A stretch of 64,000 bases of DNA from Thomasclavelia ramosa DSM 1402 (GTDB taxonomy: Bacteria > Bacillota_I > Bacilli_A > Erysipelotrichales > Coprobacillaceae). Positions 10,303-33,548 of this stretch are shown one piece after another. Within the stretch, counting starts at the first letter, position 1; the number at the start of each line of letters is the position of its first letter. The position numbers and the translations under genes are program-made. Location: positions 1,798,001 through 1,862,000 of the forward strand of contig NZ_CP036346.1 of NCBI RefSeq assembly GCF_014131695.1. The letters are read 5' to 3'. The notes beneath the pieces are model-generated. The model was not told the DNA's origin. It ran no database searches and was given only the letters and a program-made list of their open reading frames with translations.

Positions 10303-13878
<3,576 letters not shown>

Positions 13879-13897
13879 ATATTCTCCTTATTTTTTT

Positions 13898-13911
13898 GAA
13901 ATACGTATTTC
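13898..13911. promoter_or_regulatory. Perfect 14-bp palindrome before EIIC
   Basis: GAAATACGTATTTC is fully self-complementary and lies about 20 bases before the EIIC start codon, overlapping the probable leader. It may be an operator for a local regulator; no second copy was noticed. Confidence 0.4.
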
Positions 13912-14024
13912 ATTCTATCGACAATTATCATTATAGAGATTAAAAAATATTGATTTAATAAATATTTTTGTTTTTTTATATTTTTTATCACTTGATTATT
14001 ATACTTTTCAATAAATACAAAAAT

Positions 14025-14054
14025 AAAAGAGTTTCTTGTTAAGGAAACTCTTTT
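14025..14054 (-). terminator. Intrinsic terminator after the MacB-like ABC gene
   Basis: Arms AAAAGAGTTTC and GAAACTCTTTT, 11 bases each, with an 8-base loop, lie just past the stop codon at 14060 and are followed on the reverse strand by ATTTTT. Confidence 0.8.
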
Positions 14055-14059
14055 AAATC

Positions 14060-17439: not shown

Positions 17440-18192
17440 TTATTGATAATATTTTTGATAATAACGAATCCGCAAAATATCAAAAATCATCATAATTTGA
17501 TAATTAAATTGCAAACCATCAAATTTACCAAGAACATGCGCAAAATAATCAGCACAAACATTCTCATAATCACGATATGCCAGATTTTGTGTAATTAGAA
17601 CCAAATAAGCATCACAAATATTTTGTGGCTTTAATTTTTTTACATTTCTTTCCATCATTCTACCAGTTGCTGTAATAAAGAAGACAACATCGTCATCACT
17701 AAACTCAAAATTCAAATCAAAATGATGATACTCAACAACTTCTTTTCCCAATGAAATTAAATCTGTCTGGAAATCAACTGCTACACTACTTGGATATAGC
17801 GCTCCAAGAATAACAATTCTCTGCTTATTAAAAATCAATTCACAAAGTTCATCAATCCACTGTATAAATTCTTCCTTAGAATAATCAGTATTTACATGCT
17901 CAAGGAAATCATTTATATCAGTGTTTAACATCCGCGCATGAATTTGTTCAAGACGTCCCTGATGATCGGCTAAAAGACGTTCTTTAAATTCATCAAAACT
18001 ATGTATTCCAAAATGTTGACAAAAGTCCAAGAGTTCTTCTTGACTGCATTTTGCTGCATCAATAAATGATACCATAGTATGATTTTCTATCAATGTATAA
18101 TTTTTAATTATAAAATTACCAATCCTATACATATGATCATCATCTAAACACCCATTTAAATATTTTAAAATCCGTGAAATCATTAATTCCAT
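17440..18192 (-). CDS. RpiR-like regulator with degenerate SIS domain
   Basis: A 250-residue protein with the RpiR plan: an N-terminal helical region (IENHTMVSFIDAAKCSQEELLDFC, then FGIHSFDEFKERLL) corresponding to the RpiR helix-turn-helix, and a C-terminal SIS-like fold, IVILGALYPSSVAVDFQTDLISLG and VVFFITATGRMMERN. The SIS sugar-phosphate loop is weak, so ligand binding may differ from classic members. It could regulate local PTS or sugar genes. An AGGAGG site lies 11 bases before the ATG. The EIIB-like gene at 18442 lies upstream in the same direction, with a terminator between. Confidence 0.7.
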   Translation of the reverse strand: MELMISRILKYLNGCLDDDHMYRIGNFIIKNYTLIENHTMVSFIDAAKCSQEELLDFCQHFGIHSFDEFKERLLADHQGRLEQIHARMLNTDINDFLEHVNTDYSKEEFIQWIDELCELIFNKQRIVILGALYPSSVAVDFQTDLISLGKEVVEYHHFDLNFEFSDDDVVFFITATGRMMERNVKKLKPQNICDAYLVLITQNLAYRDYENVCADYFAHVLGKFDGLQFNYQIMMIFDILRIRYYQKYYQ

Positions 18193-18395
18193 TATTATTC
18201 CTACCTCCTTTTATCAAACATTAAATAATCCATTACCTATATTATATAATAATTAAGTTAAAAATTAAATTAATACATCTTTTCTAACTAATTTTTTTGC
18301 CTTTATAGCCTATCTTCTTAACCATGCCATCATTGCTCAATTGATAATCTAAACGATTAATAATTAATAACAAATACGACTTTAATATTAAAGAA

Positions 18396-18418
18396 ACTCA
18401 CTATAATATACAGTGAGT
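18396..18418 (-). terminator. Intrinsic terminator after the EIIB-like gene
   Basis: Arms ACTCACT and AGTGAGT with a 9-base loop are followed on the reverse strand by TTTCTTTAA. It is 24 bases after the stop codon at 18442. Confidence 0.6.
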
Positions 18419-18441
18419 CATAAATATTCAAAATTTAGTCT

Positions 18442-19071
18442 TTATAAAAATACTTCCTGCACACGAGAAACAATATTATTACAATTATATTGTGCAAAAT
18501 CAACAGGATTCATTATTAAAAAACGTTTGTGATACTTCGCTGCCATACTTTTAGTATAGTGTTGAACTTGTGGTGCCATCAACACTAAATCATATTCTTT
18601 CGATAGCGTATCATCATCATAGATACTAGTGGCTGAAAAATGGTATGGTAAATGATTATTATTACTAAAATCTTGTAACATTTGAGCAAACATTGCTGTT
18701 GTTAACCCACTAGAACAACACAGTAAAATATTTCGTTCACCATCATCTTCACTCACTTCATACTCTTTCTGGCAAACACAAAACATTCTTCGCTTAAAAC
18801 TTTTGATTAATTCTTTAATCTGATTACGATCTTCCATCTCATAATGAAGATAAAAAATTTGTTCATTATTTGTACAATCAGTGATGATTTCTTCTACAAC
18901 CGAATTATTCCATACGACAATTTGTCCAAAAAGATTATCTTTAAGATAATTATATGTCTCTTTTTGATCATCCTCTTTGATACAAAATTCAGTTCCCGGC
19001 TGTTCTTCGTGTAAAGTGGATAGCCATGCTTTAAATTCATCAGTATTAAAATTTCTTCTACAACATCCCAT
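18442..19071 (-). CDS. EIIB-like protein with a novel N-terminal domain (family member 1)
   Basis: A 209-residue protein. The C-terminal 95 residues look like a PTS lactose/cellobiose-type EIIB: NILLCCSSGLTTAMFAQMLQ carries Cys118/Cys119 where the phosphorylated Cys sits, and YDLVLMAPQVQHY is the next strand. The N-terminal 105 residues have no family I recognise, but FYLHYEMED recurs in the paralogue at 46870-47469 (FYLHFQMHD). No EIIA or EIIC is adjacent, so it is probably not a transport subunit; a phosphorylation-dependent signalling or regulatory role is inferred. A GCCGGC-type Cys pair opens the protein. The gene lies between an RpiR-like regulator and an ABC exporter. Confidence 0.65.
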   Translation of the reverse strand: MGCCRRNFNTDEFKAWLSTLHEEQPGTEFCIKEDDQKETYNYLKDNLFGQIVVWNNSVVEEIITDCTNNEQIFYLHYEMEDRNQIKELIKSFKRRMFCVCQKEYEVSEDDGERNILLCCSSGLTTAMFAQMLQDFSNNNHLPYHFSATSIYDDDTLSKEYDLVLMAPQVQHYTKSMAAKYHKRFLIMNPVDFAQYNCNNIVSRVQEVFL

Positions 19072-19145: not shown

Positions 19146-20726
19146 TTAATTTCGAATCTTAAAAGTATTCCCAGCCCACTTAAGTACTAAAATACAAGCA
19201 ATGACACAATAGCCAATACAAAATAGAATACAAACAATTCCAAAGGAAAGAATTGGTAACTCAAGTTTAGTAAAAGCATAACAAATAATATAGGTCAATG
19301 AAATAATTGTTGAATAAATAGGACTTTTTACTTCAGTATGCGCATTATATGGCTGCAATAAATAATATAAGATTAAATAGTGTGTTGAAAAAAATATGCT
19401 CATTGAAATTATTGAGATAAAAGATATAAATGCCAGAAATGCTTGATCAATTCCTCCACAAATAAATAAAATAGCCATATATCCTAATGCTAAAACAACT
19501 GCTGGCAATAAATTGATTTTAACTATTTCTCTTAAACGAATTTTAAATAATATTAAAATATTTTTAGGAATTCGATAAAAAGAATAAGTCAACATTGAAT
19601 GATCGCAGTTTACAAACATTGCTTGTGTAATATTTTTAGCAGTATTTAATAAATACATAATAAAAACAAAAAAAGGTAAAATACTTGTCATAGCATTATT
19701 TGCATCTTTTTGAGTTTCAACATCATAAAATAAGATACCAATTATCACAACTATTATAAATGCAATCATATAAGTTTGTCGTTTAGCTGTTTTCCATAAA
19801 ATTTTCTTATGTCTTTGCATAAATAATTCATTAAAATACTCAAAACCAGTTTTATTACTTTTAGTATCAGCTTCTAAAGTAATCATTTTATGATATGAAT
19901 CATTAATAATATCTTGAGTATCTGTATTTAATAACGAATCGATATTTTTTAATAATTTATGACTAAGCTGATGATAATCATCATACTTTAATACATAACT
20001 CATCAAAATAACCGCTAATATACTAAGGATTATTAAAACAATCAGCATCATCTTAATCGGAATAATCAGATTAGAAAAAATAAGTGCATAACCCACTAAT
20101 AAACATCCGATACTAAATCCAATTATTGCTGGTGAATTATTATTTTCACTTCGTACCTTTCGATTCCTTTTAAAATCTTTAAGATAAGCACTAACAGCCA
20201 TTAGCTTTAAACCAATAATAAATAACGGTAATATATAACTTAACCAAAAAGGGTATTGTAATGTAAAAGATAAAATCATGAATGCTGTCATATATCCAAC
20301 ATAATGTCGGAACAGAGTATATAAGTATTGTGATAGTACAAACTCTCGTCCATCCATTTTCATTAAAATAACTGCATAATATTTATCTTTCGAGGGATCA
20401 AACATTCCTGTATTAAAAAATGCTCCGCCTAAACTTAGAAAAAATAATAATTGTAACATTGCACGAAAGTTAAATACATTCATAAAATTCAAAGGTATTA
20501 TGAGCATAATTGCAAAATATATTATTTTTCCTAAAAAAACTGATATAATTTCCCAAATAGTATTTAAGATAGTAACAAATATTTTTAGACTTTGATTTTT
20601 ATAAAGTGACATAGGTAACACTCTTCTAATAATTGGAATTTGTTTAAACATATAAATAATGCTATTAACACGATAAGTATTTTTCAAACGAAATGAAATT
20701 AGAAAGGTATCAAGCATGATCTTCAT
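19146..20726 (-). CDS. ABC exporter membrane subunit
   Basis: A 526-residue polytopic membrane protein with about ten to twelve hydrophobic segments spread along its length and a soluble region near residues 255-300. It overlaps the ATPase gene upstream by 17 bases, so the two form an exporter of the EcsB/ABC-2 general type. The sequence gives no clue to the cargo. A GATCATGCTTGATACC overlap joins the two reading frames. The family name is uncertain; the pairing with the ATPase is firm. Confidence 0.8.
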   Translation of the reverse strand: MKIMLDTFLISFRLKNTYRVNSIIYMFKQIPIIRRVLPMSLYKNQSLKIFVTILNTIWEIISVFLGKIIYFAIMLIIPLNFMNVFNFRAMLQLLFFLSLGGAFFNTGMFDPSKDKYYAVILMKMDGREFVLSQYLYTLFRHYVGYMTAFMILSFTLQYPFWLSYILPLFIIGLKLMAVSAYLKDFKRNRKVRSENNNSPAIIGFSIGCLLVGYALIFSNLIIPIKMMLIVLIILSILAVILMSYVLKYDDYHQLSHKLLKNIDSLLNTDTQDIINDSYHKMITLEADTKSNKTGFEYFNELFMQRHKKILWKTAKRQTYMIAFIIVVIIGILFYDVETQKDANNAMTSILPFFVFIMYLLNTAKNITQAMFVNCDHSMLTYSFYRIPKNILILFKIRLREIVKINLLPAVVLALGYMAILFICGGIDQAFLAFISFISIISMSIFFSTHYLILYYLLQPYNAHTEVKSPIYSTIISLTYIICYAFTKLELPILSFGIVCILFCIGYCVIACILVLKWAGNTFKIRN

Positions 20727-21414
20727 CCTTTAAAATCTTGATTATCTTTTCTTGAAAAGCATCATCATCCAGATCCTCTTTATTAATTAATGATAATTGT
20801 CCTTTATTAAGGATAACTATCTCGTCACATAAATCAACTGCCAACTCCATTATATGAGTTGAAAAAATAATAATATGCTCTTTTTTTATACTTTTTAAAA
20901 GCTTTTTCATCTCATCTGCAACAACAACATCTAATGATGTTAACGGCTCATCTAACAATAGAACATCAGGGTGTGCAATGAACTGAATCAACATCTGCAT
21001 CTTATTTTTCATTCCGTGTGAAAAATCTTTTAATAAACGATCACGATCTTCTTCCAATAAATTAACCATATCAAAATATTGATCAATAGTTTTTAAATTT
21101 TTTATATTCTTAATATTGATCTCAATAAAAAACTTTAAAAATTCTCGTGCCGTTAGAAATTCCGGTACTGTTGGAGTTGATAAAACATAACCAATATCAC
21201 TCATCGTTAATGGCTTACGGCCATTATCTTCAAGATAAAAATCGCCTTTATCTATTTCTAAATCTTGGTTCAAACAATTAAACAAAGTTGTTTTGCCAGC
21301 TCCATTACGACCTAATAAACCATAGATTTTTCCTTTCTCAAAGCAAAAACTGATATCTTCTAAAACTTTTTTATCTTCAAAATTCTTTTGTAGATGTTCA
21401 ATAATTAGTTTCAT
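20710..21414 (-). CDS. ABC transporter ATP-binding subunit
   Basis: A 234-residue ATPase with Walker A LLGRNGAGKTTLFN at residues 34-47, Q-loop region, a signature FSHGMKNKMQ (degenerate LSGGQ), Walker B VLLLDEPLTSLD and a switch His in IIFSTHIM. It powers the membrane subunit encoded next. I moved the start to the ATG at 21414 because GGGAGGG lies 7 bases before it; a longer frame from 21492 would add 26 residues without a ribosome site. The signature motif change (SHG) is seen in other EcsA/BcrA-like exporters. Confidence 0.92.
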   Translation of the reverse strand: MKLIIEHLQKNFEDKKVLEDISFCFEKGKIYGLLGRNGAGKTTLFNCLNQDLEIDKGDFYLEDNGRKPLTMSDIGYVLSTPTVPEFLTAREFLKFFIEINIKNIKNLKTIDQYFDMVNLLEEDRDRLLKDFSHGMKNKMQMLIQFIAHPDVLLLDEPLTSLDVVVADEMKKLLKSIKKEHIIIFSTHIMELAVDLCDEIVILNKGQLSLINKEDLDDDAFQEKIIKILKDEDHA

Positions 21415-21525
21415 AACTTCCCTCCCTATTTTTACTAAGTATATCATCGTTAAACTGTCATCACAATAATAAGCATAATAAAACACCTTCATGCACTTTA
21501 CAAAATATTATTTATAAAACAAAAA

Positions 21526-21556
21526 TAAGAATAAACTAACTAATAGTTTATTCTTA
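21526..21556 (-). terminator. Intrinsic terminator after the GH4 operon
   Basis: Arms TAAGAATAAACTA and TAGTTTATTCTTA, 13 bases each with a 5-base loop, lie 12 bases past the GH4 stop codon. The reverse-strand tail is TTTTTGTTTT. Confidence 0.85.
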
Positions 21557-21567
21557 CTTAAATTTCT

Positions 21568-22884
21568 TTATTTAAAAAATTGTGGTAAATACTTCTTGTG
21601 TGCTTCTAACATTTCATCGAGTATTTGTCGAGCTGTTATTTCACTTTGAACTAATGGATTAATTGCCATAGCAACTAGGGCATCATCATAATTGCCACTA
21701 ACTGCCACATTGGTAGTTAAGATTTCAAATGTCTTTAATTGCTGAATTAATCCAACTACTTGAACTGGTAATTCTCCTACTGGGATAGGAACAGGTCCAT
21801 CTTTAGTTATAATACTACTAACTTCAACGACTACATCATTAGGTAAGTTAGTAATTGCACCATTATTTAGTGTGTCAACTACTTGAATATCTCCTTTATC
21901 ATTGTATAATGAAGAAATTAAATTGCAAGCTGCATCACTATAATAAGCTCCACCACGTTGTTCTAATTCCTTAGGCTTCACATCCAAATTTTCATCTTTA
22001 TATTTCTCAAATAGTTCTTTTTCAACCTTCTTCACAACTTGAGCACGACATTGATGTTTAGCTGCATCCTCTTGACAATGTTCCAGCATTTGCTGTTTTT
22101 GTAAATAATAGCGTAAATATCCAATCCCTAAATAACCATAGCTATTTAAAAATTCATTGCTCCATGGTAAATCAACAATATTTTTTAAAGATTCTTTATT
22201 TCCATCATTTATCATCGTATCAATCAAATTACGATTAGCATTTTTACCGTTTAATTGAATATCTAATGCATAGATCATATGATTAATTCCACCAATTTTA
22301 ACATCTAAATGGTCTTCTTCTTTAACTTTTAAAATTTTTTCAATGTCTTTGATCATATTTACAGGTCCATTACATAACCCAATAAATTTTTTCCAGCCAG
22401 TATGTCTAAACACTGCTTCAGCATTGATTCCAGAAGGATTTGTAAAAGAAATGATCCAAGCATTTGGACACAATTCTTCACAGTCTTTAATAATTTCAAA
22501 AATAACCGGAATAGTTCTTAATGCTTTGAACATTCCACCTGGACCATTTGTCTCTTGACCAATCACTCCATATTTTAGGGGAATCAACTCATCTTTTTCT
22601 CTAGCATCTAATTGTCCGACTCTAAACTGAGTTGTTACAAAATCAGCATCTTTTAGTGCTTCACGACGATTTAAAGTCAAATGCACTTCCATATCAAGTC
22701 CAGCTTTTTTTATCATTCGTTTAGCCAGATTACCAACAATTTCTAATTTTTCTTTTCCCTCTTCAATATCTACTAACCATAATTCTTTAACTGGTAATTC
22801 TGCATATCTTTTAATAAATCCTTCTACTAATTCTGGAGTATAACTGCTGCCTCCTCCAATTGTAACGATTTTAACGCCTTTCAT
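21568..22884 (-). CDS. 6-phospho-beta-glucosidase / chitobiase, GH4
   Basis: A 438-residue GH4 enzyme, which cleaves phosphorylated disaccharides through an NAD and divalent-metal redox mechanism. IVTIGGGSSYTPEL is the NAD-binding loop, TNPSG (Asn150) and LCNGPVNM (Cys171) supply sugar and metal ligands, and GGINH (His202) the second metal ligand. The CelF/ChbF-like branch hydrolyses cellobiose or diacetylchitobiose 6-phosphate. The last 14 bases of the upstream nagB overlap its start, which follows AAGGAGG. Linkage to nagB favours an amino-sugar disaccharide. Confidence 0.93.
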   Translation of the reverse strand: MKGVKIVTIGGGSSYTPELVEGFIKRYAELPVKELWLVDIEEGKEKLEIVGNLAKRMIKKAGLDMEVHLTLNRREALKDADFVTTQFRVGQLDAREKDELIPLKYGVIGQETNGPGGMFKALRTIPVIFEIIKDCEELCPNAWIISFTNPSGINAEAVFRHTGWKKFIGLCNGPVNMIKDIEKILKVKEEDHLDVKIGGINHMIYALDIQLNGKNANRNLIDTMINDGNKESLKNIVDLPWSNEFLNSYGYLGIGYLRYYLQKQQMLEHCQEDAAKHQCRAQVVKKVEKELFEKYKDENLDVKPKELEQRGGAYYSDAACNLISSLYNDKGDIQVVDTLNNGAITNLPNDVVVEVSSIITKDGPVPIPVGELPVQVVGLIQQLKTFEILTTNVAVSGNYDDALVAMAINPLVQSEITARQILDEMLEAHKKYLPQFFK

Positions 22885-23620
22885 AAGTTTCCTCCTTCAA
22901 ATTGGCTGCTGCACATTGATCTAATACTACAATTACATTATTGTGTGTTTGAATTATAGAGCTAGGAAAGTCTTCACTAACTGGACCATATAACATTCTT
23001 TCCACTAATTTAGCTTTTTTATTTCCTTTGGCAATCATAATTAGTTGTCTTGCCTTCATAATCGTTTTGATTCCTTGCGTAACTCCTTGCGTTGGAACAT
23101 CTTCAATTTTTGTAAAACCATAATCCAATGAACTTTGAATTGACTCGGGGTGTAAATCAACAACATGACTTTCACTATCAAATGAACTACCTGGTTCATT
23201 ATAAGCAATATGACCATCCATTCCTATTCCCAATATTTGAATATCGATAGGATTATTAATGATCAATTGATCGTATTCTTTACATTCTTTTGTCATATCC
23301 TTAGCATTTCCATTTAAAGAATAAATATTTTCTTCTTTAATATTAATTTTACTGAAAAGATAATCTTTCATTGCTCTTGCAAAGCTTTGAGGATGATCTT
23401 TTTCAATCCCAACATATTCATCAAGATTAAAGGCTCTAACTTTTGAAAAATCTGTTTTTCCACTTTGGTATGAATCAATTAAATAGTCGTATGCTCCTAA
23501 TGGTGTAGACCCCGTGGCAAAACCAATCACTGGAGCATCATTATCTTGAATAAATGTACTAATTTGCTGTCCAACATATGTATCAACATCTTGTTCGGTT
23601 TTAAATACATAAACTTGCAT
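22871..23620 (-). CDS. nagB: Glucosamine-6-phosphate deaminase
   Basis: A 249-residue NagB, which turns glucosamine 6-phosphate into fructose 6-phosphate and ammonia. The active-site Asp67 lies in FNLDEYVG; GIGMDGHIAYNEPG carries Asp133, His135 and Glu140 for ring opening; GFATGSTPLG binds the phosphate. The length matches the short bacterial class without the allosteric C-terminal extension. It sits between the EIIC and the GH4 enzyme, making a PTS uptake, cleavage and deamination sequence. No nagA deacetylase is beside it, so if the sugar is N-acetylated that step is supplied elsewhere. Confidence 0.96.
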   Translation of the reverse strand: MQVYVFKTEQDVDTYVGQQISTFIQDNDAPVIGFATGSTPLGAYDYLIDSYQSGKTDFSKVRAFNLDEYVGIEKDHPQSFARAMKDYLFSKINIKEENIYSLNGNAKDMTKECKEYDQLIINNPIDIQILGIGMDGHIAYNEPGSSFDSESHVVDLHPESIQSSLDYGFTKIEDVPTQGVTQGIKTIMKARQLIMIAKGNKKAKLVERMLYGPVSEDFPSSIIQTHNNVIVVLDQCAAANLKEETYERR

Positions 23621-23629
23621 AAAGTCCTC

Positions 23630-24946
23630 CTATTCTTGTAGCAATTCTTTTTTCTTAGCATTTTTTAATAAATCACGATCTAACACTTTTACAAATGGGA
23701 AATAAATAGCAGTAGCAACAGCAAAATTGACAATTTGAAGAATCAATGCGTTCCATCCCCCTGCTATCCAGCCAGAAATAAATACTGGTGTTGTCCAAGG
23801 AATCTCAATCCCCTGTAATAATGGTACAAGACCTAAACTCATTGCCAGATATGTCGTAACACATAAAACTATTGGTACTATTACAAATGGTATCATCATT
23901 ATAGGGTTTAAGACAATAGGTATCCCAAAAATAACCGGTTCATTAATATTAAATATAGCAGCTGGTCCAGATAACTTAGCAACTGTCTTTAATTCTGGAC
24001 TCTTTGCCCCAAACCAAATAGAAACAAGCAATGATAATGTTGCTCCCGTTCCTCCTGCAATTAAATATACATCTCTAAATTGTTGACAAATAATATTAAT
24101 TGGCTCTTTACCAGCTTGGACTAGAGCTAGATTTTCTGCTGATAAACCGCGCCAAATTGGACCCATAATAGCACTAACGACGTTATCACCATGAACTCCG
24201 AAGCACCAAAATAAACCAATTAGCCCCTCACTGATCATCTGTGATGGCAATGAATTTCCTAGTGCAGATAACGGCTGTTGTAAACATTGATAAATTAAAT
24301 CAAATACAGTTGCATATGGTGTATATTCAAAAATAACTTTAATTAAAAATACTACTGTTAAGATAATTGCCGCAGGAATTAATGAAGAAAATGAGCGACT
24401 TACAGCCGGCGGAACAGAATCAGGCATTTTAATTACCCATCCTCTTTCTTTGATCCAATGATAACTCTCAACTGTCAAAATAGTACAAATCATTGCAACA
24501 AACAAACCTGCAGCTCCAAGATATCCCATAGGAATAACTCCCCCTGAAGTGACTGTTTCACCAGCTTCAGTTGTCAATGTAATTGTAAAATTATTTAACA
24601 ATAAAAACGTAATAATTGGTAAAATCAATGCACTTGTATCTTTAATATGATGATATTCTAACAATGATTTAGCAATTCCAATAATTACAAGCAGTGCCAT
24701 AATATTAAAAGTCGGTTCTAACAAATAACCCAACTTAGCAATATTTTCAGCACCAAAAATACTTCCTAAAAAATTATTTAAAGCTTCCGAAGGTAAATTT
24801 GATAACAACAAGAATATTGAACCAATGATTAAAAAAGGCATGATGCTCGTGAAGCCCTCACGAATTGCACTTAAATAACGGTTTTGTTCAACCTTCTCAG
24901 CAATTGGCATTAGAGTTTTCTCTAACATTTGTGTAAATCTATCCAT
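23630..24946 (-). CDS. PTS EIIC, lactose/cellobiose/chitobiose family
   Basis: A 438-residue membrane permease with about ten segments, related to the EIIC at 12589. FNINEPVIFGIPIVLNPI near residue 335 is the sugar-binding NEP motif. Phosphate would arrive from the EIIA-EIIB fusion encoded upstream at 25053. It is 9 bases before nagB, so the two are one transcript. A LicR-type operator at 25014-25037 lies in its promoter region. The cargo is likely cellobiose or a glucosamine-containing disaccharide, given nagB and GH4. Confidence 0.93.
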   Translation of the reverse strand: MDRFTQMLEKTLMPIAEKVEQNRYLSAIREGFTSIMPFLIIGSIFLLLSNLPSEALNNFLGSIFGAENIAKLGYLLEPTFNIMALLVIIGIAKSLLEYHHIKDTSALILPIITFLLLNNFTITLTTEAGETVTSGGVIPMGYLGAAGLFVAMICTILTVESYHWIKERGWVIKMPDSVPPAVSRSFSSLIPAAIILTVVFLIKVIFEYTPYATVFDLIYQCLQQPLSALGNSLPSQMISEGLIGLFWCFGVHGDNVVSAIMGPIWRGLSAENLALVQAGKEPINIICQQFRDVYLIAGGTGATLSLLVSIWFGAKSPELKTVAKLSGPAAIFNINEPVIFGIPIVLNPIMMIPFVIVPIVLCVTTYLAMSLGLVPLLQGIEIPWTTPVFISGWIAGGWNALILQIVNFAVATAIYFPFVKVLDRDLLKNAKKKELLQE

Positions 24947-25013
24947 AATAGTTTCCTCCCTTTCTTTACAATTACATTATATTATTTATAAATGAAAGTT
25001 ACCTTACACATAA

Positions 25014-25037
25014 TTTCGCTATACTTAGAGCAATTCT
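25014..25037. promoter_or_regulatory. LicR-type operator, copy 1
   Basis: TTTCGCTATACTTAGAGCAATTCT (19 of 24 positions shared with 27663-27686) lies in the leader of the EIIC-nagB-GH4 operon. The second copy lies before the LicR-type regulator gene. A shared site of this length before regulator and target is a strong sign of a specific operator. Confidence 0.65.
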
Positions 25038-25052
25038 ATGCAAACTCTGGCT

Positions 25053-25703
25053 CTAATGCTTGATTTTCATAAATAATTCTTTTGCTTGATTATAAATTTT
25101 TTGGCCATCCAACTTCCCATATGCTTTCATATCGATTAGTCCTACTATTTGTGTACGCAGCGTCATCATTCGTTCAATTACAGGCATTCGATAACGGATC
25201 TGTGGACTCACCAAAACAACATCATAATCACCTATCACACCTACTAGTTCTTCAAACGATGATGATTCAATATAATCCCCTTCATCAGCATATAAATACA
25301 TTGTTTGTACTAACAAACTTGTTGACATCCCCTGTCCGCATACAAGCAATACTCGCATATTTTTTTGTTTTTGAAAATTTTCTATACCTAAATATGTTTT
25401 TATTTCTTGAACTTGCTCATAAAGACTAATAATTTCTTTTGCCATTTCTAATTGTGTTTGTGCCCCACAAAGATGATCTTGAGCATGAACTAAAAGCATA
25501 TTTGGATTAAAATGATCTACTTTTGCACTTTTAGCTAACAATTTTGATTGAATTTTATGCGCTAATAATAACTCTTCTTGAGCCTCGTTCATTTTAAAAT
25601 CTGCTTCTTGAATATCCCCCTGACGAGCATATTCAATTGCTTCCATCGAAGATGATTTAGAATTTCCAGAATGTAAAATTAATTCAAAACTTGTTTCATT
25701 CAT
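25053..25703 (-). CDS. PTS EIIA-EIIB fusion, lactose/cellobiose family
   Basis: A 216-residue cytoplasmic fusion. Residues 1-105 are an EIIA of the three-helix trimer type: ILHSGNSKSSSMEAI and LLVHAQDHLCGAQ, with the phosphorylated His73 and the metal-site HxxxH pair. Residues 115-216 are EIIB with Cys122 in VCGQGMSTSLL and VSPQIRYRMP. The order IIA-IIB is less common than separate genes. Phosphate runs HPr to IIA to IIB to the sugar bound in EIIC. It lies 15 bases downstream of the LicR-type regulator and upstream of EIIC, with a promoter region between them. Confidence 0.93.
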   Translation of the reverse strand: MNETSFELILHSGNSKSSSMEAIEYARQGDIQEADFKMNEAQEELLLAHKIQSKLLAKSAKVDHFNPNMLLVHAQDHLCGAQTQLEMAKEIISLYEQVQEIKTYLGIENFQKQKNMRVLLVCGQGMSTSLLVQTMYLYADEGDYIESSSFEELVGVIGDYDVVLVSPQIRYRMPVIERMMTLRTQIVGLIDMKAYGKLDGQKIYNQAKELFMKIKH

Positions 25704-25717
25704 CTTTTCTCTCCCCC

Positions 25718-27604
25718 TTATCCAATCAGTTTTCCTAAATTCTTTGTAAAAGTTTGATAATCACCTCTACAAATAACATCTTGAACACTTTGCTGATCCA
25801 TCATAAATTTTGAAATACACTCAAATAATACTCTTAAATCTTTTTGATTTCCTTTTTCAACACAAATCAAAAAAATCAATTGTGCCTTTTGCTTCGACCA
25901 TACGATCGGTTTATCTAAAATAGCGGTAATAACAATCGTTTTTTGAGAAATCAAATGATCAGGATGCGGTAAAGCAATCAGCTGTCCATATGCCGTACTG
26001 CCTAATTCCTCGCGACGAATACATGATTGAAACAAGTCTTCTTCAAACTCATTATATTTATTTGCAACTTCACACATCAATTGAATAACTTCTTTTTGAT
26101 TTTTGGCATCAATCATGCCCATAAAACACTCCTCTTTAAAATACTTTAATAATTCACCTGCTTCACTTTGACCTTGTAAAGAATTTTTTATTCTTTGAAT
26201 ATCTTTTTGATCAATAAAAAAATTTATTCTTAAAGCTCGTTTAGGAATCAGTGGATGATTCAAAAATGTTGCAAAAATACAGTCATAATCATCTAAATTA
26301 TATTGTGGTATCTCTAACGCATTGATAATCTCTAAATCACTGATCATTTCATTAAACTCTTTTAAAAAAGTATGTTGAATCATTAAATAATCGCCTCTAC
26401 GAGCATTACAAATTATTAAGACTTTTTTAGGATTAATTTTATTTTCTTTTTTTGAAAGCGATAAAGAAAAATGCACTGCTAAATAACCTACCTCATCACT
26501 GCTTAGTTGATAATGTTTTTGTTCACTGATATACGATGCCGCAATAACTGCCACATCATACGCTAAAGGATAATTCGCCTGAATATCTTGAATCATTGTA
26601 TTTTGTAATTGCATTTGGCTTTCTAGCCGAACTAATAAGGGCACCAGATGTAAAGCCAATGAAATCTTCAATTCAACATCACCATAAAAATCAATATCAG
26701 TTTTAATCTTAATTTCCTCCAACATGCCATTAACAAAATAATCGATTTCTTTGCTGATTAAATCATTTTCTTCATAACTACGCTTTCCAAGTAGATGAAT
26801 TGCTAAAAAAGATATTTCATTTTCAGTAACAATAAAATGATATATTGAAGCTAATTCATCCAAAATTTTTTTGGCAATTACATGCTCATGCCCATATTGC
26901 CTTGCCATTTGTGGATTATCAATGTATATTCCATGCTGCATTCGTTGAATTGAAACACATATGTGTAAAACCAAGTTTTGTAAGACCACATCGCTAATCC
27001 GATATTTTGCTTTCATCAGACTATCAACAACTATATCACTTATAGTAGCTAGCCATTCCTTTTTAATTGTTGAATGTCCTAATTGCAATTCTAATTGCTC
27101 TTTAATAATACAATCTCTTTTATCCTTCTCTAAGCCAACAACAATCATGCCATAATTAGGCTTATGTTCTATTTTTAATTGATATTTTTCGAGAACTCTC
27201 TTGACTATCTTTAAATCACTTGAAACACTGGATCGTGAAACATACATTTGACTAGCCAAATCATCCGCTTTAACAAAATGATTATCAGATAATAATGTAC
27301 TTAAAATATATGTAATTCGATAACCCTGATTATTAAAATCTTTTTTATCATCACTTTCTAATAATAACTGTTTAAAATCATTATATTCTTGTTGATCATG
27401 GATAATCAGATTATATCCTTTGCTTGTCATTGAAATAATTTCTAGTTGATATTTTTCTAAAATTATTTTCATCTCTTTTACTGTATTTTGTAATGTTTTC
27501 AAACTACAATTTACTTTATTAGCTAATTCAATCCCTTTAATAAAACTATTTTTATTCTCATCTAAGCATAAAAATATTTGTTTCTGTCGTTCATTTAGCA
27601 TCAT
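25718..27604 (-). CDS. LicR/MtlR-type PTS-controlled transcriptional activator
   Basis: A 628-residue regulator. Two N-terminal helix-turn-helices (SFIKGIELANKVNCSLKTLQ and FVKADDLASQMYVSRSSVSS), two PRD domains near 200-300 and 310-400, an EIIB-like domain near 405-500 (VLIICNARRGDYLM; the usual Cys is present in IICNA) and an EIIA-like domain near 505-628 with ALPHPDH. PTS phosphorylation of the PRD His residues would couple activity to sugar flow. It is the first gene of the operon containing the EIIA-EIIB fusion, EIIC, nagB and GH4, and its own promoter holds operator copy 2. Confidence 0.93.
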   Translation of the reverse strand: MMLNERQKQIFLCLDENKNSFIKGIELANKVNCSLKTLQNTVKEMKIILEKYQLEIISMTSKGYNLIIHDQQEYNDFKQLLLESDDKKDFNNQGYRITYILSTLLSDNHFVKADDLASQMYVSRSSVSSDLKIVKRVLEKYQLKIEHKPNYGMIVVGLEKDKRDCIIKEQLELQLGHSTIKKEWLATISDIVVDSLMKAKYRISDVVLQNLVLHICVSIQRMQHGIYIDNPQMARQYGHEHVIAKKILDELASIYHFIVTENEISFLAIHLLGKRSYEENDLISKEIDYFVNGMLEEIKIKTDIDFYGDVELKISLALHLVPLLVRLESQMQLQNTMIQDIQANYPLAYDVAVIAASYISEQKHYQLSSDEVGYLAVHFSLSLSKKENKINPKKVLIICNARRGDYLMIQHTFLKEFNEMISDLEIINALEIPQYNLDDYDCIFATFLNHPLIPKRALRINFFIDQKDIQRIKNSLQGQSEAGELLKYFKEECFMGMIDAKNQKEVIQLMCEVANKYNEFEEDLFQSCIRREELGSTAYGQLIALPHPDHLISQKTIVITAILDKPIVWSKQKAQLIFLICVEKGNQKDLRVLFECISKFMMDQQSVQDVICRGDYQTFTKNLGKLIG

Positions 27605-28323: not shown

Positions 28324-28326
28324 CAA

Positions 28327-28364
28327 AAATGGTAGCAAGTTTATTTACAAACTTGCTACCATTT
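28327..28364 (+). terminator. Strong intrinsic terminator after RDD gene
   Basis: Two perfect 16-base arms, AAATGGTAGCAAGTTT and AAACTTGCTACCATTT, with a 6-base loop, 3 bases after the RDD stop codon. Confidence 0.9.
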
Positions 28365-28380
28365 CTTATTTTGAAAATGA

Positions 28381-29229
28381 TTAAAAATCAAATTCATCCG
28401 CCCATGCAAAATAAGCCGATTCTTCAAGATTTGGTGTATATGGATTGATATCAATATAAGGGATACTAACTATCTCTGTTTGATAATCGATTACGATGAC
28501 TTCTACAACACTTAAAGCAATTGGATATTGAAATCTTATACTGAGCATTTTTTGTAACCAATTTACTAATGATAAATAAGTATCAGCAATATTAGAAAAA
28601 TCTCCATATATCACCATACAAGCCATTATTTCAACAGCTGAGGTGTATCGAAATTTAAAAAGCTTCTCGATAGTGACAGCTTTTTAAATTTCGATACTCA
28701 CAATTCTACATCAACATCATATTCACGGTAATCTTCATCATAATAAATTGAAAAATATTTTGCTGAAACATCTCTTCTATGCTCAGCAGTAAAGTTTAAT
28801 AATTCTTCCTACAACTTACTTTCAGCATAATAATCAGAAATTATTTTTCTAAATGAAAGTACAAAATAACTTGGAGTTTATTTTATTAGAACATTATAAT
28901 TCATCCCATTTTTATTACCTAATAATTCTTTTTTTGCTAATTCGATTTTTTAATTTTACTTGTTCCTCCAATATATTTTTGCTCCAGTTATTCAATAATA
29001 AACTGATTTCCTTGGTTATTTAAAACAAGTGCTATCTCTGTTAATTAAATCCACTACCTTACAAATATATAATTTTATTTAAGCGAAGAATTTGTTCACT
29101 TGAATACATGGCGCGATATCCAGTTGTTTAATCAACTGCAGCCAGTTTTAAAAGTCCCATTTCATCATAATATCTTAACATTCTAACAGTAGCCTATGTT
29201 AATTTAGAAAACGCTCCAATTTTAAACAT
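28381..29229 (-). pseudogene. MerR-family regulator with GyrI-like effector domain, decayed
   Basis: From an ATG at 29229 the reverse strand reads MFKIGAFSKLT, a TAG, then ATVRMLRYYDEMGLLK, the MerR winged helix, another stop (VD-stop-TTGYRAMYSS), and QILRLNKI. Scattered fragments of the effector-binding domain follow, ending in MACMVIYGDFSNIADTYL and a TAA at 28381. Stops and frameshifts disable it. A 53-bp palindromic element at 28645-28697 lies where part of the effector domain should be, so that stretch was replaced rather than only mutated. Confidence 0.75.
28645..28697. repeat. Perfect 20-bp inverted repeat inside the MerR pseudogene
   Basis: The arms gtatcgaaatttaaaaagct (28645-28664) and agctttttaaatttcgatac (28678-28697) are exact reverse complements, separated by 13 bases. 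It would fold into one long stem. It interrupts the reading frame of a decayed regulator and has no T tail after it, so it looks like a mobile palindrome (a MITE or REP-like remnant) rather than a terminator. No further copy was seen in the window. Confidence 0.7.
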
Positions 29230-29797
29230 GATTTCATCCATCTTTACAATATTTCCTTCTGTGTATTTATCAATAAAATCAAAATATTCTATTTCATGAT
29301 CAGCATAATACTGTTCATCAATTTGATCTAATTGATTACTGATTTCTTGATTTGAGTACATCTCGATTCGTTTATTTGGGTAGATATTAATTGCAGCTTG
29401 TAAATAATCTTTACTTATCGTTAGTTCCAAATCTCTAAAAGCTTCAAGCGTAAAATCAGAATGATGATAATAATTTGAAATAAACTGCTCAACTCCCCCC
29501 ACATTCAACTTCCATATGAAAATTATAGAGAAACCAAAAATTTTGCTCTACCAGAGTACAATCATTAAACCGTTCACCATAATTAGATTTTTCGTCAATT
29601 AATGTAAAGAGATTAAATAATCTTTCTTCCCTCTCTTGAACTATAATTTCTGTGATTGACAAATCAGGATTATAACCATTAAGTAGATAATTAAATAATT
29701 CTCCATCTTCATCAGATAATCAAGGCTTATTTAATAAAAAATAACCAATCCCTAATAGACATATGACTATTCCCATAATAATTGTTTTCTTCTGCAT
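29194..29797 (-). pseudogene. Membrane-anchored DMP19/DUF4375-like protein, broken
   Basis: From ATG at 29797 the reverse strand reads MQKKTIIMGIVICLLGIGYF, an N-terminal membrane anchor, then LNKP, a TGA, and LSDEDGELFNYLL in frame. A frameshift at a GGGGGG run near 29505 moves the reading to GGVEQFISNYYHHSDFTLEAF, which matches the DMP19/DUF4375 fold (short helical pairs; wider family of uncertain function). The shifted frame then runs into the first residues of the MerR pseudogene. Both a nonsense codon and a homopolymer frameshift are present. Confidence 0.55.
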
Positions 29798-29817
29798 TAT
29801 TTCTTCCCTTCCAGCCT

Positions 29818-30585
29818 TTATATCACTATTCTATTCATAGTCTCATCAAGAAACAAAAAATGACCTCTGCCTTGACACAAATGGAGTTCTACAAATGAAA
29901 ACTGTGATAAGATTTGCGCAGTTTTTCGAATATTTTTAAAACTGGCTTGACTATAAATTATATTAACCGGGCAGTTGATTTGTTGACATCGCTTAATATG
30001 ATTTTGTTTTTCATACTCATTCATAAGCTTTAAATAAAATGAATTAACAGTACGATTCCATTCCCTTGACGATATTCTTATTCGTTCTGATGAACTAATG
30101 TTTTTGAATTTCGTACAACATTCTAATATTTTAAATAACTTAATCTGCTTTTGAAATATTCGATAGCCGCTGCAGTATCCTGGCAACAGTGTCAACCATA
30201 ACCATTTCGGTAAATAAATCATTGTTTCTATCAAAATTAAACGCTCAATAAAATATGGATTACGAATCGCAAAATCAAGTGCAAATACACCCCCTAAACA
30301 ATATCCAACAATAGTACAAGATTTGATATTTTCGCACTTCACTAATTTTAATACCAGCTGATTAAATACTACCATATTAAAATTCTTTGTTTCTATCGAA
30401 GAATCCCCATATCCGCATAAATCAACTAAAACCAAAGAATAATTTTTTAATAAATGTTGCAGTTGATCTGTTTTATACATTTCTCTAGTCATATTCATTC
30501 CATGAAAACAAATACAGACTGGTTTATTTAAATTTTCAATTTCATAGCAAAGAATATTTCCTAAATAAGTCACTTGCTTTCTCAT
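29818..30585 (-). CDS. Alpha/beta hydrolase with Cys nucleophile
   Basis: A 255-residue soluble hydrolase. CICFHGMN is the oxyanion region and VDLCGYGDSS follows. The nucleophile elbow reads VGYCLGGVFALDFA, so Cys96 replaces the usual Ser, as in dienelactone hydrolase and PHA synthase. The catalytic His is in GRGHFLFLDE; the usual Asp position reads YSQASF, with no acidic residue. A thiol-based acyl transfer or hydrolysis is inferred, with no substrate. Its ATG overlaps the radical SAM stop codon by 4 bases, so the two are translationally coupled. Confidence 0.75.
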   Translation of the reverse strand: MRKQVTYLGNILCYEIENLNKPVCICFHGMNMTREMYKTDQLQHLLKNYSLVLVDLCGYGDSSIETKNFNMVVFNQLVLKLVKCENIKSCTIVGYCLGGVFALDFAIRNPYFIERLILIETMIYLPKWLWLTLLPGYCSGYRIFQKQIKLFKILECCTKFKNISSSERIRISSREWNRTVNSFYLKLMNEYEKQNHIKRCQQINCPVNIIYSQASFKNIRKTAQILSQFSFVELHLCQGRGHFLFLDETMNRIVI

Positions 30586-31790
30586 TTTTTATAACCTCGC
30601 ATTAGTTTATAAAATCGAGGTAATTGTTTACAAATATCACAATTTTTAGCAATACATTGACAATGCGGGCCATTTATTGCTTTTGACATTTTTACCCAAA
30701 TATATTGAATATTTTCATTCAACACATTTCCAAATGTCGGCTCAATAAAGTCACAGGGACCAAAATTACCATGTCCATCAATATATGAATGCTGTACTCC
30801 AGCTCCACAGCCAAATTGTTCAGCACTTTCAAAATATGGAAAGACACTGGCTTTAGGATATCGAGAATCTCTATTTAATGTAATATGCAATTGCTTTAAT
30901 TGTTCTTTTTCGTTATCAGTTAGAACTTCTTCCAATTTGTTTTTTAAAGCACCACAAGGTAAGGGCTCCATGATTCGCATTTCATCTATTTCTAATTTTT
31001 TTAAATACAGTGCCAGCTTTAAAATTCCTCCATTAATCAGTAATTCTCGTGTACATACCGTTTGACTCATTGTATAAAGCCCTGCCTTTTTAGCATTTTT
31101 AATAGCTTCAACAGCATAATCGTAAGCATGATCATTATGGCGCATTCCATTATGTCTTTGGGCATCTAAAGAATCGAGACTTATTGCAATACCAAATAAC
31201 CCCGCTTCTTTTAAAGCCAGAGCACGTTGATAAGTTAATTTATATCCGGTTGTAAAAATATAACTAACACTACGTTCATCAATACTTGCAATAAGCTCCT
31301 CTAAATCTTCACGCAATAAAGGTTCACCACCTGTAAAACCAATAATTGCTACACCTAATCTTTGTAATTGGGCAATGATTTTTTTTAATTCTAAAGTCGA
31401 AAATTGACTATTTGATGTGGCATCTTTCATAAACTTAGATGCACTGCAATGCCAGCAATGGTACATACATTTATCTGTAACAGCAATATATGTAGAAATC
31501 GGAGCCAGCCGAATCCCTTCAGTGTGATTAACAAAAAAATTTTTTCCTTTACCAGGAACCATCTTAACTACTGTCCTAAAAGCTTCAGTATTAATCGGTG
31601 GAATAAATGAATTCACTAAATAATAACCATCATGCTGGACTAAATGATCATTTATAATTATATTTAATCCACATTTTACCATATTTCTAACCTTATAATC
31701 TTCATGCTTGCGAAATTGGCAATGCAAATTTAAAAATGTTTTAATAATGTGGGGATTGATACACATTTTAATAATCATCCGTTTGTTCAC
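30582..31790 (-). CDS. Radical SAM protein with SPASM-like Cys-rich C-terminus
   Basis: A 402-residue radical SAM enzyme. CMYHCWHC (Cys108, Cys112, Cys115) binds the SAM [4Fe-4S] cluster, and GFTGGEPLLR is the SAM-contacting motif. The C-terminus has Cys328 (FGCGAG), Cys346 (GPCDF), Cys377, Cys379, Cys384 and Cys387 (CQCIAKNCDIC), enough for one or two auxiliary clusters of the SPASM/twitch kind used to modify peptides or sugars. The N-terminal 95 residues resemble no family I know. It lies between a methyltransferase and a Cys-hydrolase in one coupled operon; substrate unknown, no precursor peptide seen. Confidence 0.85.
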   Translation of the reverse strand: MNKRMIIKMCINPHIIKTFLNLHCQFRKHEDYKVRNMVKCGLNIIINDHLVQHDGYYLVNSFIPPINTEAFRTVVKMVPGKGKNFFVNHTEGIRLAPISTYIAVTDKCMYHCWHCSASKFMKDATSNSQFSTLELKKIIAQLQRLGVAIIGFTGGEPLLREDLEELIASIDERSVSYIFTTGYKLTYQRALALKEAGLFGIAISLDSLDAQRHNGMRHNDHAYDYAVEAIKNAKKAGLYTMSQTVCTRELLINGGILKLALYLKKLEIDEMRIMEPLPCGALKNKLEEVLTDNEKEQLKQLHITLNRDSRYPKASVFPYFESAEQFGCGAGVQHSYIDGHGNFGPCDFIEPTFGNVLNENIQYIWVKMSKAINGPHCQCIAKNCDICKQLPRFYKLMRGYKK

Positions 31791-31795
31791 TCAGG

Positions 31796-32662
31796 TCACC
31801 CCTTCTTAAATATTCCCATCACGAAATGATGAGTAATGCATGGTTTAGTAAAAAACTTCTGCAGCTGCTCAACAAGAGTATTAAAAATTTTTTCATTTTT
31901 CAAATCCAACATTGCATCATAACCAGCCAAAGCACCTGTTGAGGTAACAAATTTTGCGGCCCGATTCCAATCTGTGAAATAAAATTCTTGTTTTTTTGAA
32001 GTTACTCGACAATTTTTTAATCCTGCTTTTTTAGCCCAACGTTCCAATTGCTGCGCATTGTTTGGCATTGGTAAATCAAACATTAATTTATTAATTGAGC
32101 CTACATATTCAATTAATAATTTTGGATAAATTTTTCGAATTTGTGGCAATGTTTGCTGATCATTTACTAAGATATACAAATATCCCCCATTTTTTAATAA
32201 CCGCTGACATTGATTTAATACTTTTTGTGGTTGTTCGTACATCAATGCCCAAGTACATACGATTGCATCATAGCAACAACTTTCTTGTACCGTTAAAAAT
32301 TCAAGCATTCCTTTACACACTTTATTAATGCTTGAATTCTGACATTGTTTTAACATTTGCTTTGAAATATCCACAAGATCAATTGAATAATCATTATATT
32401 CTTGGATAAAATTTGAATTATAACCAGTTCCTCCAGCCAAGTCTAGAATACGGCCTTTAGAAATATGTTTGATTAGATGATTTAAAAGAATATCATTATA
32501 TGTATGCATTATTTTTAAATATTCTTGCTGATAAGTTTTACTAACCAGATCATAAGAATTGCCAATATCACTTCTAGTCACAATTTTTCTTGTTATAAAT
32601 AAATATCCTACCTTTATTCCTAAATGGAATAAACTAATTATTTTTCTTTTTTTAACATGCAT
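31796..32662 (-). CDS. Class I SAM-dependent methyltransferase (larger)
   Basis: A methyltransferase of about 288 residues. ILDLAGGTGYNSNFIQ is the SAM-binding loop, VDISKQMLKQC motif II and YDAIVCTWALMYEQP motif III; the C-terminal 90 residues form an extra domain. It starts inside the end of the smaller methyltransferase gene; ATG at 32662, with GGGA 7 bases before it, is preferred over GTG at 32674. The N-terminal 45 residues before the Rossmann fold are hydrophobic (IISLFHLGIKVGYLFIT) and could anchor it. It is 5 bases upstream of the radical SAM gene. Confidence 0.85.
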   Translation of the reverse strand: MHVKKRKIISLFHLGIKVGYLFITRKIVTRSDIGNSYDLVSKTYQQEYLKIMHTYNDILLNHLIKHISKGRILDLAGGTGYNSNFIQEYNDYSIDLVDISKQMLKQCQNSSINKVCKGMLEFLTVQESCCYDAIVCTWALMYEQPQKVLNQCQRLLKNGGYLYILVNDQQTLPQIRKIYPKLLIEYVGSINKLMFDLPMPNNAQQLERWAKKAGLKNCRVTSKKQEFYFTDWNRAAKFVTSTGALAGYDAMLDLKNEKIFNTLVEQLQKFFTKPCITHHFVMGIFKKG

Positions 32663-33219
32663 ATATAGTCCCACTTTCCTTGATGTAGAAATACTATATT
32701 CAGCTTATTTTGAAGCGAAAAATCAACCAACTGTTCAGGTTTGACTGGTTTTATTTTTTCAAAACAACAACGTTCAAAAAGAAAAAGTAATTTTATTCTA
32801 AATGCTCTTTGATTAAAATCATGAATCAAAATAAAACCGTTATTATTTAGATAATTTAGCATCAATTTAAGACATTTTTCTTGATTCATTAAATGATGTA
32901 AACAATCTCGACAAATGATAACATCGACTTTATTTATTGGAAGACCTTTTTGTATCGATGCATGAATTAATTTTACATTAGTGTTTTTCTTTTTAGCTTC
33001 TTTAAGCATTGATAAACTAGAATCCACAATTGTGACTTGATGACCAGCAGCTTGTAAATCAGCGGCTAGTGTTCCACTTCCTCCGCCAACATCCAAAATA
33101 TGATATTGCCCCTTCGATAATTTGTGTTCAATAACACTTGTATCATCTAAATGAAACAAGCGCATAAAATGATCATATATCTTTGCATAACTATCAAATA
33201 AATAGCTCATAATTATCAC
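32638..33219 (-). CDS. Class I SAM-dependent methyltransferase (smaller)
   Basis: A 193-residue methyltransferase: ILDVGGGSGTLAADLQ is the SAM loop, VTIVDSSLSMLKEA motif II and VDVIICRDCLHHLM motif III, the UbiE/Ubi-like arrangement. It lacks the extra C-terminal domain of its neighbour. It is the first gene of the four-gene cluster and overlaps the larger methyltransferase by about 25 bases. A weak ATCACC-type site precedes its ATG. Acceptor unknown. Confidence 0.85.
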   Translation of the reverse strand: MIIMSYLFDSYAKIYDHFMRLFHLDDTSVIEHKLSKGQYHILDVGGGSGTLAADLQAAGHQVTIVDSSLSMLKEAKKKNTNVKLIHASIQKGLPINKVDVIICRDCLHHLMNQEKCLKLMLNYLNNNGFILIHDFNQRAFRIKLLFLFERCCFEKIKPVKPEQLVDFSLQNKLNIVFLHQGKWDYICMLKKEK

Positions 33220-33548
33220 CCTTTATTTCATTATATTATATATAATTAGTTATAGCTAATAAAAAAGATACCTAGTAAAGTGAACCCAAGTATTTTATCC
33301 AATTATCAGATCATGATAACAGAGCAGCTTTCAAAGCATAATTAAACTTCTTCCAATATAAACTGCTAATTTGGAGATTTTCTCTTTGAGCATTAGTTAA
33401 TTTCATCAATAACTAAAAATCTCTCTAAAACTTTTATTTTATATGCGGTAACCCATCTTTATTTCTTTCTATAGCTTAAATTATTTAGATTATCACCATT
33501 ATTTTAAAATAAAATTAATATAAAAATGGACTATTAAAAATCCATTTT
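33220..33548. other. Intergenic region, 329 bases
   Basis: It contains the PHP-gene terminator at 33524-33549 (AAAATGGA/TCCATTTT). The reverse strand has a degenerate ORF (TNAQRENLQISSLYWKKFNYA, then a stop) that I cannot assign; no promoter was sharp enough to call. Confidence 0.5.

Follow-up and report, generated by a model that had tools for sequence, protein, structure and literature searches.

Radical S-adenosylmethionine (SAM) enzymes with auxiliary clusters catalyze some of the most unusual reactions of anaerobes, and most of these enzymes have no assigned substrate. A Twitch domain carries three or four conserved cysteines for one auxiliary cluster, and a SPASM domain seven to eight for two (PMC10452713). 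SkfB, the maturase of the sporulation killing factor, combines a barrel with a Twitch domain whose ligands include a CxC pair (CX33CXC; PMC6231123) and has approximately 100 residues ahead of the barrel. AhbD, which we group with NirJ2 and MoaA for comparison, has the C-terminal motif CX2CX5CX2CX17C (PMC10452713). Among partner enzymes, BioC is a carboxyl O-methyltransferase of malonyl-ACP that works with the esterase BioH, a pimeloyl-ACP methyl-ester hydrolase with a serine nucleophile, in a mask-and-unmask logic, and dienelactone hydrolases and poly(hydroxyalkanoate) synthases have a cysteine in the nucleophile elbow. Here we describe a gene cassette of Thomasclavelia ramosa DSM 1402 with likenesses to each of these. 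It lies in a stretch of 64,000 nucleotides (contig NZ_CP036346.1, positions 1,798,001 to 1,862,000), hereafter the window, and encodes two class I methyltransferases (MTase1 and MTase2), a radical SAM enzyme (rSAM), and an alpha/beta-hydrolase with a cysteine nucleophile.

Our analyses identify an uncharacterised Twitch-rSAM/BioC-like cassette that represents a genuine pathway, probably for making or altering a small molecule, with each enzyme drawn from a known superfamily. All four open reading frames (ORFs) are intact on the minus strand, at the place given by the original prediction, which had been made from the sequence alone. That prediction proved correct about the anatomy and in part about the interpretation. 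Its proposal of one coupled operon combining two methyltransferases with radical chemistry held up; the genes are intact and tightly packed. Its description of four overlapping genes was right for two junctions (approximately 25 bp between MTase1 and MTase2, and 4 bp between rSAM and hydrolase) and wrong for MTase2 and rSAM, which are separated by a 5-bp gap.

The distribution of the rSAM was sparse. Close relatives, 52–57% identical, were found in an Actinomycetota metagenome-assembled genome (MAG; locus L003), a Clostridiales MAG (L004), and Clostridium aminobutyricum (L005), with a further one in genome G1062 (L039), and a second clade with approximately 34–39% identity occurred in eight further clostridial genomes. 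The rSAM was absent from the searched genomes of 8 other species of the genus, from 34 other genomes of the family, and from 391 other genomes of the phylum. No relative appeared in a scan of viral contigs, and a plasmid collection yielded only distant rSAMs, which we used as neighbourhood contrasts. We counted 12 core loci, leaving out L024, where the rSAM is at a contig edge. MTase2 was directly upstream of the rSAM in all 12, including L022, whose contig begins inside MTase2. Ahead of MTase2, MTase1 was intact in nine loci, shortened in one, absent from one, and beyond the reach of the contig in L022. The order MTase1-MTase2-rSAM was the same in Clostridia, the Actinomycetota MAG, and T. 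ramosa, and this recurrence in other phyla argues that the cassette is beyond chance. Across 297 genomes, MTase2 was present in seven and the core rSAM in eight, and all seven were among the eight; the eighth has its rSAM at a contig edge. The co-occurrence had a hypergeometric P of approximately 2e-13, uncorrected for relatedness. The original prediction had asked whether the four genes always travel together, and the examination of conserved neighbours showed that they do not: the hydrolase was present in only 3 of the 12 loci (the window, L003, and L039). The core-clade loci share no fifth conserved gene. The cassette is thus a three-gene core, MTase1-MTase2-rSAM, with MTase2-rSAM as its tightest pair and the hydrolase as an optional add-on.

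Judged by sequence and fold, the nearest named relative of MTase2 is BioC. BioC was the best NCBIfam match for all nine MTase2 members; that of the window protein was full-length and scored 71 bits, below the cut-off of 185, which places it outside the BioC family proper. The MTase2 profile also matched the C-terminal region of the solved BioC structure 8x8i, and the top Foldseek matches were BioC as well, with approximately 17% identity in the structure match. Other matches included juvenile-hormone acid methyltransferase, another carboxyl methylase, and, for six of the nine members, BchM, a porphyrin carboxyl methylase. Unlike BioC, MTase2 has an rSAM and another methylase as coupled partners. 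That other methylase, MTase1, is of a generic UbiE/CmoM-like type and weakly matches tRNA methylases, CmoM among them. Its orthologues, 40–44% identical, come first in the cassettes of L003, L004, and L005, and also in L039; more distant ones were found in L020, L021, L023, and L038.

The rSAM, present as a single copy in the complete 3.25-Mb genome, consists of an orphan N-terminal domain (residues 1–95), a barrel, and a Twitch-type domain, C328-x17-C346-x30-C377-x-C379. Its CxxxCxxC motif (C108/C112/C115) was invariant in all aligned relatives. The six C-terminal cysteines reported earlier are indeed at 328, 346, 377, 379, 384, and 387, but taking them as six ligands was an over-reading, because the conserved set is three to four: C328, C346, and C379 are invariant, C377 is shared by members of the near clade, and 384/387 are private to the window protein. 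This pattern fits the published definition (PMC10452713), and we therefore assign the rSAM, from its cysteines, to the Twitch-domain enzymes. The SPASM Pfam profile scored 17.7 bits, below its cut-off of 21.5, and the cysteines fall short of a full SPASM set. The N-terminal domain of approximately 95 residues has invariant M9, F62, P64, F71, and F86 and matched nothing in Pfam or PDB; its predicted structure was of low confidence. As the structure model, predicted from four sequences, had a mean pLDDT of 59.6 and was weak outside the barrel, its fold matches confirm the barrel only. Among solved structures, SkfB was the best relative found with the family profile (84.8 bits), and the best named NCBIfam profiles were NirJ2 (113.6 bits) and AhbD (93.1 bits), both with cut-offs of 500, while MoaA gave 100.6 bits against 284. 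With AhbC no higher, the protein is outside all of these families. With three invariant auxiliary cysteines, one iron site would stay open, as it does in MoaA, but the rSAM differs from the NirJ2/AhbD/MoaA group in its extra N-terminal domain, its cysteine motif, and the lack of their pathway partners.

The optional hydrolase has Cys96 in GYCLGG as its nucleophile, as first proposed from the sequence, together with His242. Both residues are kept in all three orthologues, which occupy the same place in L003 and L039 with 32–34% identity and have the elbow motifs GYCLGG, GYCLGS, and GFCLGG. No acid is conserved at its customary position following the next strand; the invariant Glu120 is a candidate acid, and serine hydrolases can also carry Glu at that position. 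BioH is among the relatives, although the cysteine and a score of 40.9 bits against 207 set the protein apart from it. Dienelactone hydrolase was matched weakly, whereas the protein is closer overall to ordinary serine esterases. The genomes of L004 and L005 had no orthologue anywhere, and their best matches have serine nucleophiles. Hydrolase-like genes in L026, L009, and L010 were likewise rejected as orthologues for their serine nucleophiles.

Distant rSAM relatives offered hints about the substrate. In a clostridial locus (L041:7102-16322), a relative is accompanied by two ketosynthases, a polyketide cyclase, a methyltransferase, an alpha/beta-hydrolase, two PF04240 carotenoid-type proteins, and a 3-beta-hydroxysteroid dehydrogenase-like reductase, apparently an anaerobic polyketide or lipid pathway. 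Five other loci (L042:5197-8824, L043, L044, L045, and L027) pair a relative with a GMC oxidoreductase bearing a predicted 4Fe-4S motif, a 138-residue membrane protein (fused to the rSAM in L027), and a 180-residue protein without a Pfam match. On a Haliovirga plasmid (L006:7833-16909), a relative is beside a KAS III-type enzyme, a DMT transporter, DUF1302, an MMPL transporter, and a LolA-like protein. The ketosynthases, KAS III-type enzyme, and GMC oxidoreductases suggest that rSAMs of this branch have substrates resembling lipids or polyketides.

Given these hints, our preferred, though tentative, reading is that the cassette is a horizontally spread, stand-alone set which may modify a carboxylate-bearing, probably hydrophobic small molecule, such as a lipid- or polyketide-like acid, in anaerobes. 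Since the set has no backbone-building enzyme, the substrate would be made elsewhere. MTase2, from its likeness to BioC, would methylate a carboxyl group, and MTase1 would put a second methyl on C, O, or N. The rSAM would cleave SAM at the C108/C112/C115 cluster and abstract a hydrogen from the substrate, and its single auxiliary Fe-S cluster could accept an electron or hold the substrate in position to give an oxidised or coupled product, as expected from the domain type. Where present, the Cys-hydrolase might finally cleave or transfer an ester or acyl group, paralleling BioC and BioH. The original prediction had named a quinone, besides a lipid or cofactor, as a fitting substrate; a polyprenyl quinone is unlikely in this host because UbiA-family prenyltransferases (PF01040) were absent from its complete genome, whereas the same search was positive in all 14 control genomes. 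The hydrophobic anchor on which that idea leaned also proved weak: MTase2 begins with a cationic helix that is moderately hydrophobic (mean over 19 residues ≤0.38) and is no clear transmembrane segment.

Several observations weigh against modification of a lipid- or polyketide-like acid. Class I methyltransferases switch substrates easily, and the resemblance of MTase2 to BioC is far under the family cut-off. The weak N-terminal helix is not universal, being missing in C. aminobutyricum. MTase1 is shortened in L025 and absent beside the MTase2-rSAM pair in L026, and 9 of the 12 core loci have no hydrolase. The neighbours of lipid/polyketide type accompany rSAMs of distant branches and not those of the core clade, and Twitch or SPASM sequence is no predictor of the reaction (PMC6231123). 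A bolder form of the proposal is somewhat unlikely. It would be an anaerobic small-molecule pathway of a new class. The BioC-like carboxyl methylase and the Twitch rSAM, whose orphan N-terminal region would be a substrate domain, would depend on each other in acting on an acid of lipid or polyketide type; the acid would be masked as a methyl ester, which the Cys-hydrolase would remove in some hosts.

Peptide maturation, in which the rSAM would introduce a cross-link or thioether into a ribosomal peptide whose gene lies elsewhere in the genome and the methyltransferases would methylate the peptide, draws on the sactipeptide enzyme SkfB being the best solved relative. In the near clade, C346-x30-C377-x-C379 also resembles the cluster ligands of SkfB, and both proteins have a similar length ahead of the barrel. 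Unlike SkfB, the rSAM has two methyltransferases as partners and no conserved adjacent peptide gene; no short ORF was conserved in the flanks of 10 cassettes, so the earlier remark that no small precursor is nearby was confirmed. Furthermore, the N-terminal domain matched neither RRE/PqqD nor any other Pfam or PDB entry, and neither a peptidase nor an exporter accompanies the cassette genes. A ribosomally synthesized and post-translationally modified peptide is not supported as the substrate, and we consider this explanation unlikely, although a precursor could be encoded at a distance and the N-terminal domain was modelled poorly. The lack of a backbone-building gene could instead mean that a macromolecule (tRNA, protein, or cell-envelope polymer) is modified rather than a free metabolite, and the weak matches of MTase1 to tRNA methylases point the same way. 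The sparse, patchy distribution is unlike that of a housekeeping modification, however, and profile searches of the cassette proteins found no RNA-binding domain, which makes this explanation quite improbable.

A tetrapyrrole substrate was considered because of the NirJ2 and AhbD profile scores and the BchM matches of MTase2. In such a scheme, the rSAM would act on a siroheme-derived macrocycle, as AhbC, AhbD, and NirJ do, and the methyltransferases would esterify or methylate its carboxylates. The host does make siroheme-type tetrapyrroles: its translations show hemA, hemC, cobA/hemD, hemB, and hemL in a row, adjoining genes that resemble asrABC, for a likely anaerobic sulphite reductase. Nevertheless, MoaA, PqqE, and other profiles scored alike, so the match mainly marks the superfamily branch; the AhbD motif is absent from the rSAM; and the only tetrapyrrole-related genes near any cassette are cytochrome-maturation genes approximately 3 kb off in L003. 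We regard this substrate as very unlikely. That the cassette is a relic of a single acquisition, now out of use in a region undergoing decay, appears most improbable of all: two genes downstream are broken and all eight congeners searched lack the cassette, but none of its own four ORFs is broken, and they retain catalytic residues and good ribosome-binding sites. A defence role was also considered and was not supported, PADLOC giving only generic viperin and mads_2 matches.

In line with the original prediction, no named pathway is known to have exactly these four genes. The best NCBIfam scores of the cassette proteins are far below every curated cut-off, and no curated family names the combination. 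A literature search found no description of it either, which is weak evidence because subscription journals were mostly outside the search. With its three core genes the cassette is small; it is also intact in an anaerobe whose genome is sequenced and conserved in different phyla, so a novel product as well as a novel reaction could be revealed through it. Concrete handles for study are the orphan N-terminal domain and the invariant pairing of MTase2 with the rSAM.

The features of the operon and its boundaries are collected in Table 1. Likely starts were chosen from ribosome-binding sites and homologues. For MTase1, GTG 33219 is an unlikely start because it is inside the ribosome-binding site AAAGGGTG; for MTase2, the preferred ATG is better spaced from AGGAAAGTGG. 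In the region upstream of the operon, promoter-like matches from a promoter and terminator scan were no better than in shuffled sequence, and no short ORF was conserved.

Table 1. Features of the cassette operon and its borders in the window (coordinates in window positions).
Feature	Coordinates	Strand	Likely start; stop	Evidence
MTase1, small class I SAM methyltransferase, 190 aa	32638..33210	−	ATG 33210; 32638	Pfam Methyltransf_11 E=1.2e-16
MTase2, class I methyltransferase, BioC-like, N-terminal cationic helix	31796..32674	−	ATG 32662 (alternative GTG 32674); 31796	best NCBIfam BioC
Radical SAM enzyme (rSAM), 402 aa	30582..31790	−	GTG 31790; 30582	Pfam Radical_SAM PF04055 E=4.9e-21
Alpha/beta-hydrolase, Cys nucleophile	29818..30585	−	ATG 30585; 29818	Abhydrolase_1 E=4.9e-12
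Intergenic region upstream of operon	33211..33548	−		ribosome-binding site AAAGGGTG at 33224-33217
Decayed genes downstream, operon boundary	28381..29810	−		DMP19-like + MerR/GyrI-like fragments

The cassette is within a stretch of approximately 14 kb (window approximately 19.1–33.5 kb) that is missing from the sister species G036 and G041. In G036, a PHP-domain gene is followed by a homologue of window 18442-19071 with no cassette there, and G041 likewise has no cassette at the matching place. The stretch holds the operon and genes 19146-27604, and in the sister loci L074 and L075 the PHP gene closely precedes homologues of window 17440-19071. On the 3' side of the operon, the DMP19-like gene is split by a stop and a frameshift, and the neighbouring fragments resemble a MerR regulator with a GyrI-like effector domain. 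A long perfect hairpin at window 28325-28366, with T-rich ends on both strands, is likely a bidirectional terminator between an RDD gene and the decayed region. In the Actinomycetota MAG, a multihaem-cytochrome-like gene (L003:5065-5850) and CcmE/CcmF-like cytochrome c maturation genes (13264-16322) flank the four-gene cassette at a distance. On an Indioceanicola plasmid (L007:3165-8887), three radical SAM genes and a PqqD-family chaperone adjoin genes with TIR and SIR2 domains.

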